A stretch of DNA of 24,512 bases from a virus. The notes beneath the pieces were generated by a model, which saw nothing but the letters and a program-made list of their open reading frames with translations, had not been told where the DNA came from and did not search any database. The stretch lies in IMG/VR virus record IMGVR_UViG_3300044701_003679, positions 1 through 24,512 of that record. One strand, given 5' to 3'. A program made the position numbers and the translations under genes. Below are positions 6,366-17,581 of the stretch, in pieces. Positions within the stretch are counted from its first letter, which is position 1. Every line of letters begins with the position of its first letter.

Positions 6366-6421
6366 AGTAGCCTTAAACGGTGAGCGAGTAGATCTCTGTG
6401 GCGATCCACAGGCAGTTGGCG

Positions 6422-6613
6422 ATGTGTCGTCGCATTAAAGGCTTAAGGGTGCATGCTGGACTGACACAGATGCAGGTTGCAGAGGCACTTTGTGTCAGTC
6501 AGGCTGCATACAGCAGGTTGGAAAAGGGAGAGGTTGAGATTTCACTCACAAAGTTGTTCGTTTTAGGCGAGCTTTATGGCGTTTCGCTCCACAAGTTGAT
6601 CGAGGGGATCTAG
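6422..6613 (+). CDS. Cro/CI-like helix-turn-helix regulator
   Basis: This 63-residue protein is on the plus strand, opposite to its neighbours. I chose the ATG at 6422. A GTG at 6398 would add 8 residues but lies closer to the candidate operator. The HTH_3 pattern is clear: GLTQMQVAEALCVSQAAYSRLEKGE is the helix-turn-helix, followed by EISLTKLFVLGELYGVSLHKL. It is a minimal DNA-binding repressor or activator with no second domain. It sits alone inside the head gene cluster, in a stretch visibly poorer in GC than its surroundings, which suggests a later insertion. Its TAG stop shares the palindrome CTAG (6610-6613) with the stop of the convergent 67-residue gene. It may regulate itself and the divergent protease gene through the inverted repeat at 6343-6365. 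Confidence 0.85.
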   Translation: MCRRIKGLRVHAGLTQMQVAEALCVSQAAYSRLEKGEVEISLTKLFVLGELYGVSLHKLIEGI

Positions 6614-6823: not shown

Positions 6824-7696
6824 TCAGCCCAGCGGTGTTTTGGAGCGACGCGGGCACCGGCTGGCCTCTAAAGCGTCGGAACGGCCTGTAGCCCGTTTAA
6901 TGAACTCTCCGATTGAGACTTGTGTTTCGAGTTCACCCATTGCGGATTCGGGGTCAGGTCTGAATCCATAACGACGGTAAATAGCAGTGCGGCCTCGGCC
7001 TCCCCCGTCTGATTCAACAGCGGACGCGACTAATGCGGCCTCGGGCGGTAGGTGCTGTACGTGGTCCAGCATCATGGAGGTAATTCGTTTCTGGATCAGG
7101 CGCGTTGAAGAGACGGATTCTTGTGGTGGAGGTGGCTGATTCCACTTTCGTATGGTAGGGCGCGTCAGGGACCGGTCAATAGTGAACTGCACCTGCCAGC
7201 GGTCCGAGAATCGGCCCTCCTGCTCGACCCGAGTCTCGATAACCCGACCATTAAGTGTGCTTAGGCCGATGTGCTCGTTGCTCCAACGACCACCATGGTT
7301 TTCAAATTTAGCTATTACATAGTCTTTGGTGGGATTGACGCTAATAATTTGCAGAGGGCTGTGTTCGTGTTGTTGTAGAAGTTCACTTTTTGTTGCTTCT
7401 GACAGTTTTGAGATATCCCGCTTAAATAGATCCGGCACAAAAGCGAAACGCTCATCAATCGCTGAAGCCGGTGCCAAGCGATGCAGGGCTTGAGCGGCTG
7501 GGCGCGCTTTGACAGAACTGACAATCGCCGCTGTTATCCCAGTCGCGACTGCACCGGCGACTAACCCGGCGGCGATGCGTCTAGCACTGCTGCCTACCTG
7601 TTGTTTGTTGCACGTATGACTCCGAGGGATATGAGACTGCCCGCAGGGCTTTCCGTTTCCGCCCTCGGGGGCGTCGGTTAGCGCTAGGCGGGCGAC
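6824..7696 (-). CDS. Frame -1 extension of the 261-residue gene: Cys module, hydrophobic segment and possible GNAT-like domain
   Basis: This frame is open for 290 codons after the GGGAAAG heptamer at 7702-7696 and ends with TGA at 6824. It has no ATG, GTG or TTG for its first 73 codons (the first candidate is a TTG at 7477), so it cannot be started normally in full. Its residues 18-33 read CGQSHIPRSHTCNKQQ, close to CGQGHIARGKTCHKRG in the upstream gene, and a hydrophobic stretch follows (IAAGLVAGAVATGITAAIV), close to IAAGLTAGAVAALTF upstream. The C-terminal half is mixed alpha/beta and ends with ALVASAV...GRGRTAIYRRYGF, which resembles the last motif of GNAT acetyltransferases; this is weak. 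The middle part is clearly AT-richer than its neighbours. The best reading is a fusion product of 548 residues made by -1 frameshifting. A decayed gene or an assembly error is the alternative. Confidence 0.7.
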   Translation of the reverse strand, partial: VARLALTDAPEGGNGKPCGQSHIPRSHTCNKQQVGSSARRIAAGLVAGAVATGITAAIVSSVKARPAAQALHRLAPASAIDERFAFVPDLFKRDISKLSEATKSELLQQHEHSPLQIISVNPTKDYVIAKFENHGGRWSNEHIGLSTLNGRVIETRVEQEGRFSDRWQVQFTIDRSLTRPTIRKWNQPPPPQESVSSTRLIQKRITSMMLDHVQHLPPEAALVASAVESDGGGRGRTAIYRRYGFRPDPESAMGELETQVSIGEFIKRATGRSDALEASRCPRRSKTPLG

Positions 7697-8469
7697 TTTC
7701 CCGGCATGAGCGCAGCGTCGCGGCGCTGGCGGGCGGGATCGATGTAGGTCGTGGCGTAGGTATTGATGTAGTTGTCGCGGCGGGGCTTGCGATAGCCGGG
7801 CTCGTGTTTGCGGCGGAGCGCTTCGAGGGTGAGGTTGTGCCGGCGGATGCCACCGGGGATGCCGGTGTTCTTGAGCTCTTTCTTGGCCTCGTTGAACGCC
7901 TTGGGGGTCAGGCGCATCGAGGGTTCGGGGGCGGTGGCTTTGTGGACGGCCTCGGTGACGGCGCGTTGCGCTGTGCGGCGAAGTGCAGCGGGGCTACCAA
8001 GGATCGCCTTGCGACTGCCCTTGAAGGTCAAGGCTGCAACGGCACCGGCGGTCAGGCCAGCGGCGATGGCTTTACCGGTGGGGAAGGCGCCGCGTTTGTG
8101 GCAGGTCTTGCCTCGGGCGATGTGGCCCTGGCCGCAGGCTTGGCCATCGGCATCGCGGCGGCTGGTCTTACCGGAGCACTTCCACTTCGCCCGGGACAAG
8201 CAGAGCGGGGTGTTCTTCTCAGCGCCGGAGCAGTCGTACCCCTCGGATTTCATGTCACCGAAGCTGCGGGCGCAGTAGCGGTCACCTTTGTCGGTGCCGG
8301 GGGCGATGCGGTAGCCCTTGGCGCCGTAGCGGACCTTGTTTTTGCGGCCGGTCTCGGGGTTGGTGACGACCTTGGTGTACTTCTTGTCGTCCTCGGTGTC
8401 CTTCTGGGCACGGGGCTTGGCAACGCCCGAGGAGGCGTCGATGCGGACGGTGGCCGGGGTCAGGGCCAT
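7684..8469 (-). CDS. Cys/Lys/Arg-rich head-region protein with one hydrophobic segment (261 residues)
   Basis: It starts MALTPATVRIDASSGVAKPR. Residues 30-105 form a Cys/Lys/Arg-rich block: KNKVRYGAKGYRIAPGTDKG, then DRYCARSFG, and further Cys at 80, 90 and 98. I recall such a block (DUF6321-like) from cyanophage and other viral proteins, but the name is tentative. Residues 112-127 carry CGQGHIARGKTCHKRG, followed by a hydrophobic segment (about 134-149). The C-terminal part is basic (KKELKNTGIPGGIRRHN...RRKHEPGYRKPRRD). It is encoded between the MuF-type head gene cluster and the capsid protease, so it is probably a virion or ejected protein; that is inference. The final codons carry the GGGAAAG slippery site that would extend the protein to 548 residues. 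The start lies 3 nt after the stop of the 311-residue gene. Confidence 0.75.
   Translation of the reverse strand: MALTPATVRIDASSGVAKPRAQKDTEDDKKYTKVVTNPETGRKNKVRYGAKGYRIAPGTDKGDRYCARSFGDMKSEGYDCSGAEKNTPLCLSRAKWKCSGKTSRRDADGQACGQGHIARGKTCHKRGAFPTGKAIAAGLTAGAVAALTFKGSRKAILGSPAALRRTAQRAVTEAVHKATAPEPSMRLTPKAFNEAKKELKNTGIPGGIRRHNLTLEALRRKHEPGYRKPRRDNYINTYATTYIDPARQRRDAALMPGKSPA
7696..7702 (-). other. Candidate programmed -1 ribosomal frameshift heptamer (GGGAAAG)
   Basis: In the zero frame the codons are CCG GGA AAG TCG CCC GCC TAG, so the heptamer is G GGA AAG, a canonical X XXY YYZ slippery site. After slipping the codons are GGG AAA GTC. GGGAAAG is the heptamer used in the lambda G-T tail chaperone frameshift (established knowledge). 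The zero-frame stop comes only four codons later. Downstream, GGGCG at 7664-7660 can pair with CGCCC at 7673-7669 or with CGCCC at 7694-7690, giving alternative small stems. Confidence 0.65.
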
Positions 8470-8472
8470 GGC

Positions 8473-9408
8473 TCAGATGGCGAGTTGGTCGAGCTCGGGG
8501 GAGAAGCCGGCGGCGTAGACCGAGTCGCGGCGGCCGGGGCGGTTATACATCCGCTCGAACTGTGATTTGGCTGTGCGATAGGTGACGTTGCTCTTGGCAG
8601 CAGCAGCGCGCCCAAATGTGTTGCGCAGCCCTGCAGCGGCATTTGAGGCTGCAGATTTGGCACCGGAGAGGTTGGCCTTGTTCAGATCACCGGTGAGCGC
8701 GGAGCCGACTAGGGCTGAGACTGCTCCCGAGCCAAGGGAACGTTTGGCTTGTTGCTTTAAGGCTTTGTTGTTGGTGCGGTTGCCCTTGGCGGCCATACCG
8801 GCAGCTCCAAGTGCTGCAAAAGCTCCTTGTGCCTGGAGTGCGCGGCCCGCTCCTTTGAGGTCGCCGGACATGCCCTTGGCGACGCTTTGGGCGTAGTTGT
8901 ACAGGGTGCCTGCGGTGCCTGCGATAACAGCGGCGTTCTCAAGACCCGCACGCACACGCGATCCGGCTTTCTGTGCCGTGCCCTTGGTGCATTTCTCGCC
9001 CTCGGAGATGCTGCCCTTGCCGCACTTGAGGTCCAGGCGCTCGGCGGCGTCCAGCCGAGCGCGGATGTAGGCGCGGGAGCGGTGCTGGATGCCCAGGTCG
9101 CAGGCGGCGAGGTACTCCTGCGGGCTCAGGGCATCGTTGCGGTCCATCTTTTTGGCGTAGCTGCCGCAGCTGCCGTCGCAGGAGGCTTTGCCCTTACGGC
9201 CCTTGCCCATGCACCCGCAGTCCCCGTCCATGGGGGCTTTGGTGTTTTTGACGTTTTTGGCGCTCCGTTTGCGGCTGTGCTTGGCCTTCTGGGCATCGTC
9301 GGGTTCGGCACCCTCGCGGGTCTCTTCCTCAGGGGTTTCGCCCATTTCGTGGGCTTTTCCTTCGCCGGGCTCGAGTTCGAGGGGACGGCGCTTCTTGGTA
9401 GCGGGCAT
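8473..9408 (-). CDS. Cys/Ala-rich head-region protein (311 residues), paralogue-like to the next gene
   Basis: It starts MPATKKRRPLELEPGEGKAH. Domains in order: a highly charged N-terminus (1-58); a Cys cluster with Cys 64, 66, 77 and 81 in a Gly/Lys-rich setting (DCGCMGKGRKGKASCDGSCG); a short helical region with another Cys at 103; the module CGKGSISEGEKCTKGT at 129-144; and hydrophobic Ala/Gly-rich helices from about 152 (LENAAVIAGTAGTLY and AFAALGAAGMAA). The C-terminus ends RRDSVYAAGFSPELDQLAI, faintly like the RRDAALMPGKSP end of the neighbouring gene. The Cys module plus hydrophobic helix is shared with that gene and with its -1 frame extension. The low-complexity helical part suits a membrane-active or DNA-associated ejection protein. 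No family is known to me. Confidence 0.75.
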   Translation of the reverse strand: MPATKKRRPLELEPGEGKAHEMGETPEEETREGAEPDDAQKAKHSRKRSAKNVKNTKAPMDGDCGCMGKGRKGKASCDGSCGSYAKKMDRNDALSPQEYLAACDLGIQHRSRAYIRARLDAAERLDLKCGKGSISEGEKCTKGTAQKAGSRVRAGLENAAVIAGTAGTLYNYAQSVAKGMSGDLKGAGRALQAQGAFAALGAAGMAAKGNRTNNKALKQQAKRSLGSGAVSALVGSALTGDLNKANLSGAKSAASNAAAGLRNTFGRAAAAKSNVTYRTAKSQFERMYNRPGRRDSVYAAGFSPELDQLAI

Positions 9409-14071: not shown

Positions 14072-14144
14072 TTTGGTGCAAAGTGTTGGGGCATGGGGTA
14101 TCGCGCTCGGGGGTTCGTAGCCTGGGACAGCAGCCTTGTGCGGC

Positions 14145-14471
14145 ATGTTGGACCATCACATCGATGGCTCCCTCCTTTGCTCGAAGCGCACGGCCAAGCT
14201 GAGATTTCGTCAGGGGATCCTGGATTCCTGGGGCGGGGCGTGCGCGTATTGCGGCGCTCCGGCAGGGACGTTGGATCACGTCCGCGCTCGGCGGCGCGGC
14301 GGTGCCACGGTGCAGCGGAATCTCGTCGCGGCGTGCGCCTGCTGTAACCGGGCCAAGGGCTCGGAGGAGTGGACTTGCTGGTTCCGGAGCCAAGCGTTCT
14401 GGGATAGCACTCGGGAGCAGCGGATCTGGTGGTGGACTCAGACCCCACTGGATTTACCCCTCATTGCCTAG
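14145..14471 (+). CDS. HNH endonuclease
   Basis: The protein has 108 residues from the ATG at 14145 (MLDHHIDGSLLCSKRTAKLR); a TTG at 14136 would add three. It is on the plus strand inside a minus-strand packaging block. The HNH fold is clear: first zinc pair CAYC, catalytic LDHVRARRRGGAT, then NLVAACACCNRAKGSEEW with the second zinc pair, and a Trp-rich C-terminus (CWFRSQAFWDSTREQRIWWW) typical of the cyanobacterial HNH subgroup I recall. HNH proteins near terminase genes can cut DNA for packaging in HK97-like phages, but the reversed strand and AP2 neighbour fit a free-standing homing nuclease better. It converges on the AP2 gene with an 18-bp overlap at the 3' ends. Confidence 0.88.
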   Translation: MLDHHIDGSLLCSKRTAKLRFRQGILDSWGGACAYCGAPAGTLDHVRARRRGGATVQRNLVAACACCNRAKGSEEWTCWFRSQAFWDSTREQRIWWWTQTPLDLPLIA

Positions 14472-14726
14472 GTCGTTGATCAACGCGAAGTCCCCGATGA
14501 TCCGCAGCGCCGCCTCGTTGTAGGCGCGGGCGGCTTCGAGCTCGGTGGCGTAGTTGCCTAGGTAGTAGCGCTGGCCTTTGTGAGTCAGGCAAGCGCGGTA
14601 GGGGTGGGTGGGCGTGCCCTTGGTGACGCCGCGGAAGCGGGAGAACTTGCCGCTGGGCAACGGCCTGCGCGCCTGGGACAGGTAGAAGTCGCGGTCTGAG
14701 AGGCGCTTGCGGTAGTAGCTCGGCAT
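14454..14726 (-). CDS. AP2-domain DNA-binding protein
   Basis: This 90-residue protein starts at the ATG at 14726 (MPSYYRKRLSDRDFYLSQAR), one base after the terminase stop. A TTG at 14741 inside the terminase gene would add five residues. The single AP2 domain is clear: SRFRGVTKGTPTHPYRACLT, then GQRYYLGNYATELEAARAYNEAALRIIGDFALIN, with the YLGNYATELEAARAYNEAA core. AP2 domains in phages and cyanobacteria occur mainly as the DNA-recognition part of HNH homing endonucleases. Here the AP2 gene and an HNH gene lie tail to tail on opposite strands, as if the two functions of one such enzyme had been split and one part inverted. A role as DNA-binding partner of the HNH is inference. Confidence 0.88.
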   Translation of the reverse strand: MPSYYRKRLSDRDFYLSQARRPLPSGKFSRFRGVTKGTPTHPYRACLTHKGQRYYLGNYATELEAARAYNEAALRIIGDFALINDLGNEG

Positions 14727-14727
14727 C

Positions 14728-16209
14728 TCAGATGTGGGCAAAGAAGCCGGCTGTGTTGGGCACCTCTGGGATGAGGTGGCAGGCGAAAGCTAGGGCCATC
14801 ACCGTGTCGTCGTGGGCGCCGGAGGCGGCTTCGCGGTTGCCGGATTCCTTTTGCTGGAAGGCGCGGAGCTCGTCGCTGATCACGCCCTCGGGGAAGATCA
14901 GCTCGTCGTGCTCCATCAGGAACAGGATCCGATCTGTCGCCACGATCTTGCTGGGGCGACTGGTGTTAAAAGTTTCGATAGCGTAGTTGGGCAGGATGTT
15001 TGACAGCGCCTCTGCGATTACGGCGCCCATTGCCTGCTTCTCCACGATTACCCGCTCCGGAAGGTAATCCTCGATGAGGCTTTTGACGTGCTTCAAGCTG
15101 TACTCGGTGCTGCGACCGTTCTCGCGGTACATGCCCACGACCTCGTAGGGCTTTTCGGTGATGTCCAGGACGACCGCTGTGAAGTAGTCGTTGCCGCCGG
15201 CGTTGGGGTCCACGCCAATCACGTAGGTGCGACCGATGGAGCCGCACTCGCGCCAGTGGCCTCGGGCGGCGCGGCGCACCAGATCCGAGGGGAACACCTG
15301 GGTGTCAGTGGCGCCAAACGCCAGCTCGTACTCGGAGTCCCATGCGGCTTGGGTCATCCGGCGCGACTCGCGGGTGTTGCGCGCCCAGTCCGGGTCGTGG
15401 CCGTAGAGCGGATGCTGGCTGTAGTGGATCGCGACGCGGTTCCAGGAGTCCTTGACCTCGGCGAGGCGGGCGTTGAGCTCCTCGATGCGCCGGCGCCGGA
15501 CGTACTCGTACCAGTCGGCTGGCGTGCCCTGGTGCCAGAGCTGGCCGAACCAGTCGAGCTCGGTGTCGGGCGTCGAGGTGACGATCACCTTGGCGTTCTC
15601 GCCCACCATGGACAAGGTGGGCATGGCGCCCCGGTAGATCTCGGCGGCGCCGTCGAGGAAGGCGCCTTCGTCCATGAACAGGACGGAGCAGCTGGGGATA
15701 CCCCGCGCTGCGCGGGGCGACGCGGGTAGGAAGTACAGGGTGCCCCGGCCTTCGATGGCGATCTGGGTGTTGCTGTCTGTCAGGTAGCGGATGGATTCGC
15801 CCTCGATGCTGTTGGCCATGGCGCGGACGCGGCGGCCGAGCTCGGAGGCGTCCTGCTGGGTCTTGGAGAAGACCACGGCGGCGAAGCCGCGCTCGGTGAG
15901 GGCACGGCAGAGCAGATAGGAGCACACCGTCTCGGAGGCGCCCATCTGGCGGGACTTGTTGATGATCGTGTTCGGGTGCTCGTTGATCGAGCGCACGAGC
16001 TCGACTTGGTAGGGGTATGGGTCGAAGGGGGCGACGGTGCCGCCGGTGCGGATCCAGGTGCGTCGTGCGAACGACGGCCAGTCCTCGACGCCGGGGAGCT
16101 TGGTGACGCGCACGCCGGGGTCGAAGTTGGCGGAGCGGGCTTTGCGCTTGGCCAGTTCGAGCCGGAGCTTGTCGGCGCGGCGTTGGAGCTGGGCGAGGGA
16201 GGCGGTCAC
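14728..16209 (-). CDS. Terminase large subunit
   Basis: The protein has 493 residues and a GTG start at 16209 that overlaps the small-terminase stop as GTGA. It is the ATP-driven DNA packaging motor with nuclease. The ATPase part has an adenine-binding YPYQVELVR near 66-73, a Walker A variant KSRQMGASE at 85-93, Walker B VLFMDE at 176-181, and the coupling motif VTSTP at 210-214. The nuclease part has the RNase H-like acids: Asp 334 in VIGVDPNAGG, Glu 390 in VIVEKQAMG, and Asp 467/468 in GAHDDTVMALAFA. Length is normal for the family and all key residues are present. The gene is followed directly by the AP2 gene, not the portal, which points to an insertion. Confidence 0.95.
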   Translation of the reverse strand: MTASLAQLQRRADKLRLELAKRKARSANFDPGVRVTKLPGVEDWPSFARRTWIRTGGTVAPFDPYPYQVELVRSINEHPNTIINKSRQMGASETVCSYLLCRALTERGFAAVVFSKTQQDASELGRRVRAMANSIEGESIRYLTDSNTQIAIEGRGTLYFLPASPRAARGIPSCSVLFMDEGAFLDGAAEIYRGAMPTLSMVGENAKVIVTSTPDTELDWFGQLWHQGTPADWYEYVRRRRIEELNARLAEVKDSWNRVAIHYSQHPLYGHDPDWARNTRESRRMTQAAWDSEYELAFGATDTQVFPSDLVRRAARGHWRECGSIGRTYVIGVDPNAGGNDYFTAVVLDITEKPYEVVGMYRENGRSTEYSLKHVKSLIEDYLPERVIVEKQAMGAVIAEALSNILPNYAIETFNTSRPSKIVATDRILFLMEHDELIFPEGVISDELRAFQQKESGNREAASGAHDDTVMALAFACHLIPEVPNTAGFFAHI

Positions 16210-16999: not shown

Positions 17000-17581
17000 T
17001 CAAATCCGCGCGGTGATGACGCTCTCGGGCTGGTCTTGGTACTTGCCTGAGCGGGTTTCGTAGGAGACGGCGCAGGGGTCGCCTTCAAGGAACAGGGCTT
17101 GGACAATGCCCTCGCCGGCGTAGATGCGGCAGTCGGCGCTGGAGCTGTTGCTGAACTCCAGGGTGAGGTGGCCGCGCCAGCCGGCCTCGCCGGGGGTGGT
17201 GTTGGCGATCACGCCCATGCGGGCGTAGGTCGACTTGCCGATGAACAGGCAGGTGATGTTCGGCGGGATGTCCAGGTGCTCCAGCGCGACACCGAGGCCG
17301 TAGCTATGGCCCGGAAGGATGAAGTAGGAGCCGCGCTCGTCTGTGTGGAGCTCGACGGATTCGAGGTTCGCCGGGTTGAAGTCCTTGGGGTCCATCACGG
17401 TTCCCGGGACGTGGCGGAAGACCAGGAACTCGCGGGGGCTGAGGCGTAGGTCGTAGCCGTAGGAGCTGCAGCCGTAGCTGAGGACCTTGCCGGTGGGCGC
17501 TTCGCGGATGAGGTTTGGCTCGAAGGGCTGGATCATGCCGCCGGCGGCGCGCACGCGGATCCAGATGTCGTTCTTCAGCAT
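17000..17581 (-). CDS. dcd: dCTP deaminase
   Basis: The protein has 193 residues and starts MLKNDIWIRVRAAGGMIQPF. It converts dCTP to dUTP (or to dUMP in bifunctional forms), feeding thymidylate synthesis during phage replication. Family motifs are in place: SYGYDLRLSP at 40-49, the nucleotide-binding GKSTYARMG at 115-123 with Ser 117 and Arg 121, a PGEAGWRGHLTLEFSN block at 130-145 with the catalytic Glu 142, and a C-terminal YQDQPE that closes over the substrate. Length is typical of a complete enzyme. The start shares one base with the upstream stop (TGATG), so it is coupled to the zinc-ribbon regulator gene. Confidence 0.93.
   Translation of the reverse strand: MLKNDIWIRVRAAGGMIQPFEPNLIREAPTGKVLSYGCSSYGYDLRLSPREFLVFRHVPGTVMDPKDFNPANLESVELHTDERGSYFILPGHSYGLGVALEHLDIPPNITCLFIGKSTYARMGVIANTTPGEAGWRGHLTLEFSNSSSADCRIYAGEGIVQALFLEGDPCAVSYETRSGKYQDQPESVITARI

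Follow-up and report, generated by a model that had tools for sequence, protein, structure and literature searches.

Comparative evidence for a programmed -1 frameshift that extends a phage head-region protein with interchangeable enzyme domains

Introduction

The tail chaperone genes G and G-T of phage lambda yield a short and an extended product from one start, by frameshifting on the slippery heptamer GGGAAAG. Frameshifting has also been described in the major capsid genes of phages T7/T3, A2 (Lactobacillus), and PSA (Listeria), where a minority of a head-operon protein receives a C-terminal extension that in several cases, not including T7, adds an immunoglobulin-like domain (PMC5009743). 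In retroviruses, -1 frameshifting gives a minority of Gag the enzyme and can bring it into the particle (PMC5009743). Swappable domains of the ADP-ribosyltransferase, kinase, GNAT acetyltransferase, and peptidase types have been reported on phage head-region proteins thought to be injected (PMC5512222, PMC12226406), and VIP2-MuF fusions have been described (PMC7302621). Here, we analyze a 24,512-nucleotide viral DNA (positions 1 to 24,512 of IMG/VR record IMGVR_UViG_3300044701_003679; hereafter "the window"), a 24.5-kb record with a head operon on the minus strand. Between the MuF and head maturation protease genes of this operon lies a pair of overlapping frames (the "cassette"), i.e., a gene for a 261-aa protein, which we call the carrier, and a downstream -1 frame encoding an enzyme-like domain.

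A preliminary description of the window, made from its letters, had read this overlap as a probable programmed -1 frameshift on GGGAAAG, had associated the heptamer with the tail chaperones of lambda, and knew of no case at this position, in a head-region gene between MuF and the protease. The parallel to lambda stands, but frameshifts in major capsid genes have been described (PMC5009743). The interchangeable enzyme domains encoded downstream were not part of that description.

A slippery heptamer conserved at the junction

In the window, GGGAAAG occupies positions 7702-7696 (minus strand) and is read in the zero frame as ccG GGA AAG, followed by three sense codons and the TAG stop of the carrier gene (7686-7684, i.e., 9 nt past the heptamer). 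An open -1 frame extends from 7993 to a TGA at 6826-6824. Entered via the frameshift and counted from the GGG, it comprises 292 codons plus the TGA (7702-6824, minus strand), and the fusion product would have 548 aa. No ATG, GTG, or TTG occurs over 75 codons from the heptamer, the first being a TTG at 7477; the earliest CTG is at 7486, and the earliest near-cognate codon is an ATC at 7630. The CGQSHIPRSHTC segment in this start-less stretch is a copy of the carrier's own module: the 261-aa protein matches positions 7663-7466 with an E value of 2.3e-9 and 41% identity. The in-frame heptamer shortly before the TAG, the start-less frame, and its resemblance to the upstream module had all been pointed out in the preliminary description, and all three were borne out. 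GGGAAAG occurs once in the window, compared with 3.1 occurrences expected by chance. Its presence alone proves nothing, and its conservation in relatives, not the heptamer itself, is therefore the test.

Relatives, referred to below by locus numbers (L), were collected in several ways. The search with the carrier kept the best 80 of 247 relatives; a pattern containing the heptamer gave 32 stretches, 6 of which (L086, L088, L090, L102, L103, and L106) are not cassettes; and 77 stretches came from a protein-level pattern free of the heptamer (DA, five residues, GKPCG). The module itself was sought with a regular expression, likewise free of the heptamer, across all collected loci, including 47 chance-match stretches (L115-L161), which returned 43 distinct module sequences. 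Relative to the upstream carrier, 27 of these are out of frame, and each of the 27 includes a locus recovered by the heptamer-free protein pattern. GGGAAAG is present in the -1 register in all 27, and no out-of-frame module without it was seen among the 43 distinct modules in the collected loci. A heptamer of the X_XXY_YYZ form used in tandem-slippage -1 frameshifting, placed in the zero frame near the overlap, is thus found in the window and in 27 of 27 modules. A zero-frame stop follows within 12 nt in every one of them (no distance filter was applied), as TAG at +0 (n = 7), +3 (n = 1), or +9 (n = 13) or as TAA at +12 (n = 6); termination is thus retained while its position varies. Among the other modules, two (L021 and L189) contain GGGAAA yet read continuously, and 14 comprise the continuous L036 and L047, three continuous modules without the linker in L067/L068, and nine lying elsewhere within single frames.

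The last pattern scan returned 35 contigs, none of them new. Counting those of L013 and L170 as well, the cassette is present in 37 contigs other than the window, 36 of which have an open -1 frame. A second IMG/VR contig, L003 (12,812 bases), has both frames at 100% amino acid identity and may not be an independent sample. Among the zero-frame third positions of the 27 out-of-frame modules, the one at -3, just ahead of the site, does not vary, while the eight preceding ones agree in 33 to 74%; those at 0, +3, and +6 are invariant as well but form part of the class-defining heptamer. The representatives used in the alignment (30 aligned) and in the sets for stems, synonymous sites, and the ratio of nonsynonymous to synonymous substitution rates (dN/dS) were located by the heptamer, so that its invariance in these sets follows from how they were chosen. 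In the genome collection, the heptamer-containing pattern had 10 matches (Devosia and others), none of which showed the linker within 20 codons past the site.

The comparison of sequences strongly supports programmed -1 frameshifting on G GGA AAG, which we consider very probable. The support comes from retention of the site and of a zero-frame stop soon after it, together with three lines of evidence presented below: selection acting on the -1 frame, naturally continuous relatives, and domain swapping behind one junction. The preliminary description had proposed, as a check, asking whether relatives conserve both the heptamer and the downstream frame without a start, and it is this comparison that now upholds its reading.

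Interchangeable enzyme domains behind the junction

The domains encoded behind the junction differ among relatives. Kinase-like domains, which are of two types, include those of L011 (Kdo, APH, and ABC1 Pfam matches above the cutoff) and L101 (RIO1, ABC1, and Pkinase matches). L104 and L091 carry an ADP-ribosyltransferase exoenzyme domain (ADPrib_exo_Tox, PF03496, above the cutoff), and L037 carries a domain with an HELGH motif resembling HExxH proteases, with peptidase matches that are weak and below the cutoff. A segment of L034 that by eye is like the L104 ADP-ribosyltransferase is placed ahead of a kinase; it reached no such Pfam match.

The -1 domain of the window (7432-6899, minus strand) had no match in Pfam and has relatives in L059 and L019, both behind the same frameshift. 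Its structure model (predicted local distance difference test [pLDDT], 77.6; predicted template modeling score [pTM], 0.70) gave as the best Foldseek match a lysine acetyltransferase (E value, 3.5e-3; template modeling score, 0.31), with no match at an E value of ≤0.001. In VIA, Z scores reached 8.4, just exceeding the range of 7 to 8 rated as common by the tool, and nearly all of the 50 matches listed were acetyltransferases. The model suggests that the domain probably has the GNAT acetyltransferase fold, a statement on fold and not on function. Distant relatives of this domain were observed inside the large gene between the portal and MuF genes in L204, L072, L044, L163, and others, and effector domains may thus be shared among head genes of different phages. 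In L163, an apparent leader retaining the frameshift site stands ahead of a kinase-like product.

The window and L011 have 98% identical major capsid proteins (MCPs) and 90% identical portal proteins, yet they encode unrelated enzymes (acetyltransferase-like and kinase-like, respectively). The last six codons of the window's -1 frame (SKTPLG; 6844-6827, minus strand) align with the ..RPFGTPLG in which both L011, a kinase version, and L004 end; L004 belongs to a set of loci (L004-L009) that have no cassette and end directly in ..RPFGTPLG. Near-identical MCPs, different enzymes, and a shared ..TPLG tail therefore indicate that the domain was swapped, and the SKTPLG end would be a relic of the swap. 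A C-terminal PFGTPL recurs in kinase-type and some other products (the -1 ends of L011, L034, L059, L083, and L111 as well as L036, L068, and L004). An extra module was also seen directly past the junction in the -1 frames of L017, L028, and L037 (STAYYRTHPKARRRKVRHQAAINRQP.. in L028); in L017, it accounts for almost all of the -1 product and matched no Pfam family.

Proposed function and alternative explanations

We propose that some ribosomes on the carrier mRNA would slip by -1 at G GGA AAG and pass the carrier stop, appending a C-terminal module. This module would consist of a linker with the Cys motif, a hydrophobic segment, and an enzyme domain that modifies the host, which is acetyltransferase-like in the window and of a kinase, ADP-ribosyltransferase, or peptidase-like kind in relatives. 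The frameshift would hold the ratio of carrier-enzyme to plain carrier low, and the enzyme would enter the capsid along with the carrier and be delivered with the DNA, as Gag brings Pol into retrovirus particles. To this reading, in which a set minority of effector enzyme is added to a head-region carrier that enters the virion, we assign a probability of roughly 0.55. Use of the carrier as an effector loader is suggested by its position in the head operon and by enzyme classes like those of proposed injected polyvalent and MuF effectors (PMC5512222).

A less probable but serious alternative is that the frameshifting is real and merely limits the dose of an enzyme acting late in the cell (e.g., in excluding other phages or altering the host), its product being neither packaged nor injected. 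All of the evidence for frameshifting fits this alternative equally, and in L163 the carrier is seemingly cut to a leader of ~18 codons (VSLTPASLRRDGALTPGK; near 9318, plus strand) while the site persists. A kinase encoded between the portal and MCP genes of Gratiaviridae has, moreover, been interpreted as a late immunity function (PMC8008677). What argues for loading instead is the match of the enzyme classes to proposed injected polyvalent or MuF effectors (PMC5512222), together with the position of the cassette. When eight window genes were compared by tblastn with 35 loci (the representatives, L107, and the continuous L021 and L189), MuF was detected in 24 and the protease in 17, the remainder being mostly too short to show them; the cassette lies between the two in all 10 loci in which both were detected.

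It is improbable that the downstream frame is a gene of its own, initiated at an internal or nonstandard codon with the aid of termination-reinitiation at the carrier stop. This would suit L183 and L017, in which a GTG overlaps the zero-frame TAG (TAGTG, codon 6 of the -1 frame), as well as the 4 of 20 examined first starts that have a Shine-Dalgarno-like motif. The overlaps lie at 8940 in L183 (reverse-strand script coordinate) and at 7083 (plus strand) in L017. Such a motif is absent at the other 16 first starts, whose position is variable and falls within the enzyme domain in L104 and L019, and 26 of 28 representatives have their first ATG, GTG, or TTG only 42 to 179 codons past the heptamer. 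The exceptions are L183 (GTG at codon 6) and L199, where the contig edge is reached after 31 codons; outside the 28, the GTG of L017 is likewise codon 6, and a start is present at codon 30 in L028 and L037. Except in L183 and L017, the downstream frame is coding from the site onward without a start of its own. Between +18 and the first start codon, dN/dS was 0.22 in the -1 frame versus 1.33 and 1.87 in the other two frames, both of which contain stops over this stretch (all pairs of the 28 representatives, ≤30 codons each; the pairs are not independent). By this measure, the -1 frame is under purifying selection ahead of any normal start codon. Independent initiation would also leave the retention of the heptamer without a reason.

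Slightly less probable again is that the conserved sequence is chiefly a recombination patch for domain swapping, with a frame break that is tolerated and not programmed. Differing domains behind a single junction would fit such a patch, and the synonymous sites of GACGCCCCCGAGGGCG are unusually conserved. A patch leaves unexplained, however, why the heptamer is in register in 27 of 27 modules and why an early zero-frame stop occurs at four positions. In addition, L036 and L047 read the junction continuously as LTPLTVLGLAHLDAP (compare LTPGKVLGLVTLDAP in the frameshift product) and so retain the protein junction without the heptamer or an alternative-frame stop.

Continuous relatives also bear on whether the break reflects an indel from sequencing or assembly or else a gene that is broken; the preliminary description had said that they would indicate an indel error. 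They do occur (L021, L189, L036, L047, and the distant L067/L068), as a minority. With one extra G, L021 joins the frames via CCGGGGAAAG and, like L036 and L047, is colinear with the predicted frameshift product; in L189, GGGAAA is present, and the upstream frame joins the module directly. In a midpoint-rooted tree of 22 kinase-type products, L021 pairs with the frameshifting L057 (support, 100/100), L189 clusters with L083 and L111 (99/95), L067/L068 are set apart on a long branch, and the placement of L036 is not resolved. Continuous reading was thus probably gained at least twice inside frameshifting lineages, unless cassettes were exchanged. Since L021 and L189 are nested among frameshifting relatives, the frame break is not explained as an indel error; L036 and L047 lack both the heptamer and the alternative-frame stop. 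The indel or broken-gene explanation, with which the continuous relatives and the decayed L107 (see below) would agree, is the least probable of all, being refuted for the family by recurrence of the cassette in the 37 other contigs with 36 open -1 frames and opposed by the four distinct stop positions and the purifying selection past the shift. Transcriptional slippage was set aside because the base runs are only three long.

A possible stem-loop (CGCCC-CCGA-GGGCG; 7673-7660, minus strand) lies 22 nt past the heptamer and is common in relatives; as CGCCC-N4-GGGCG, a 5-bp stem at +29 to +42, it is paired in 93.8% of the cells of the alignment. Stimulatory structures usually begin 5 to 9 nt from the slippery site and are not required at all frameshift sites. 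The hairpin is not established as a stimulator, shuffled sequences being equally stable and no pair having changed on both sides.

A number of observations weigh against the proposal that the frameshift loads enzymes into virions or against parts of it, among them the nonindependent pairs and the GTG/TAG overlaps already mentioned. The stem begins farther from the site than usual, has folding energies like those of shuffles (z from -1.3 to 1.9), and showed no double change across relatives. Every cassette uses one and the same heptamer, GGGAAAG. In L107, the -1 frame has decayed to 30 codons. The carrier is not always present, given that the zero frame ahead of the cassette in L199 has no Cys-rich domain and that of L163 seems reduced as described above; in L063, MuF was undetected by tblastn though the portal and the 311-aa gene product (g8473) upstream of the cassette were detected. 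The carrier has no recognized fold, its structure model (pLDDT, 49) being too poor for use, and its place in the virion is predicted from gene position. The frameshift product is predicted here from sequence comparison, and slippage itself, its efficiency, packaging, injection, and the activity and targets of the enzymes are inferred. At 3226-3315 of L107 (reverse-strand script coordinates), the heptamer is retained, the -1 stop follows after 30 codons, and one Cys of the module is lost.

Components of the cassette and its neighborhood

The carrier gene (8469-7684, minus strand; MALTPATVRIDA..) encodes a Cys-rich domain (KKYTKVVTNPETGRKN..CSGKTSRR), the CGQGHIARGKTCHK module, a hydrophobic segment, and a C terminus ending in ..ALMPGKSPA*. 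Behind the junction, ahead of any start codon, the -1 frame has the second copy of the Cys module (GKPCGQSHIPRSHTCNK; 7654-7604, minus strand), followed by a hydrophobic segment recognized by eye in the translation (RRIAAGLVAGAVATGITAAIVSSVK; 7582-7508, minus strand) and the acetyltransferase-like domain. Neither the carrier nor the -1 frame matched a family in Pfam or PHROGs. The Cys-rich part of the carrier is present in 17 named-phage records, including cyanophage S-TIM5 and Vibrio phages; among the named phages searched, the window's -1 frame had no match, nor did the kinase product of L083.

The head operon, in minus-strand coordinates, further includes genes for the terminase (16209-14728), the portal (13909-12077), a 591-aa protein (g10317; 12092-10317), MuF (PF04233; 10330-9461) as a separate gene, and the 311-aa protein g8473 (9408-8473). 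Beyond the cassette lie a small open reading frame (ORF; 6813-6610), the head maturation protease (DUF2213; 6335-5031), and the MCP (4407-3475). On the opposite strand within the operon, just ahead of the protease gene, is a small helix-turn-helix protein (6398-6613, plus strand; PF01381; E value, 3e-13). Near the terminase gene, an HNH endonuclease-like ORF (14136-14471, plus strand; E value, 7.6e-9) adjoins an AP2-domain-like ORF (14454-14741, minus strand; E value, 7e-6, below the cutoff), which itself adjoins the terminase gene. A dCTP deaminase-like protein is encoded at 17000-17581 (minus strand; PF22769; E value, 1.2e-23).

The nearest MCP is that of Synechococcus phage S-CBS4 (56%), and the nearest terminases are those of Cylindrospermopsis and Nodularia phages (35% and 30%, respectively), suggesting that the host is likely a cyanobacterium. 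S-CBS4 annotates other genes at the corresponding place, as judged by annotation only, with no homology search inside S-CBS4.

Comparison with known systems and implications

As in lambda G/G-T, a short and an extended product would come from one start. The cassette differs from that system in lying between the MuF and head protease genes of the head operon, and not in a tail chaperone gene ahead of the tape measure gene, and in having a variable, enzyme-like extension; neither of its proteins belongs to a Pfam or PHROGs family. With the frameshifted capsids of T7/T3, A2, and PSA, it shares a predicted minority C-terminal extension of a head-operon protein, but theirs is in the MCP gene, whereas the MCP is encoded separately here, and the extension is enzyme-like and interchangeable. 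The proposed logic resembles that of retroviral Gag-Pol, in which a minority of carriers gains an enzyme by -1 frameshifting; the differences are that this is a DNA phage with unrelated proteins and no established stimulator and that packaging here is a prediction from gene position. A variable C-terminal effector follows a constant N-terminal part, as in MuF polymorphic toxins, and the swappable domain types are those tied to head-region proteins in MuF toxins and polyvalent proteins. In those systems, the effector is reported as a fusion with a MuF or portal domain (PMC5512222, PMC7302621), while here MuF has a gene of its own, and the effector is encoded in the -1 frame of another gene, that of the carrier, which has no Pfam match. 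The main text of PMC5512222 does not contain the word "frameshift."

Lambda-type tail chaperone frameshifts, major capsid frameshifts, and single-gene MuF-effector fusions are thus already known. Among the open-licence papers listed in our searches, we found no report of a phage head-region protein that gains enzyme domains by frameshifting, nor of a constant frameshift junction in such a gene with exchangeable enzymes behind it, which is weak evidence of absence. Discussion of frameshifting in tailed phages has centered on tail chaperones, along with a small number of capsid genes. In the cassette, the junction is constant, and the enzyme is exchanged. The frameshift looks like a device for dosing effectors relative to a structural partner. 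More tentatively, at somewhat short of even odds, a frameshift junction in a capsid-associated carrier may be a universal socket for host-modifying enzymes, with the slip rate setting how many enzyme copies are packaged and injected. The predicted junction peptide (..MPGK-VAR.. in the window and ..LTPGK-VLGL.. in relatives) and the seven-base target make the question of whether and how phages load host-modifying enzymes into virions testable, with the continuous L021, L189, and L036 and the cassette-less L004 as natural controls. These observations also suggest that gene callers cut or miss such enzymes, given that the frames encoding them lack a start codon.

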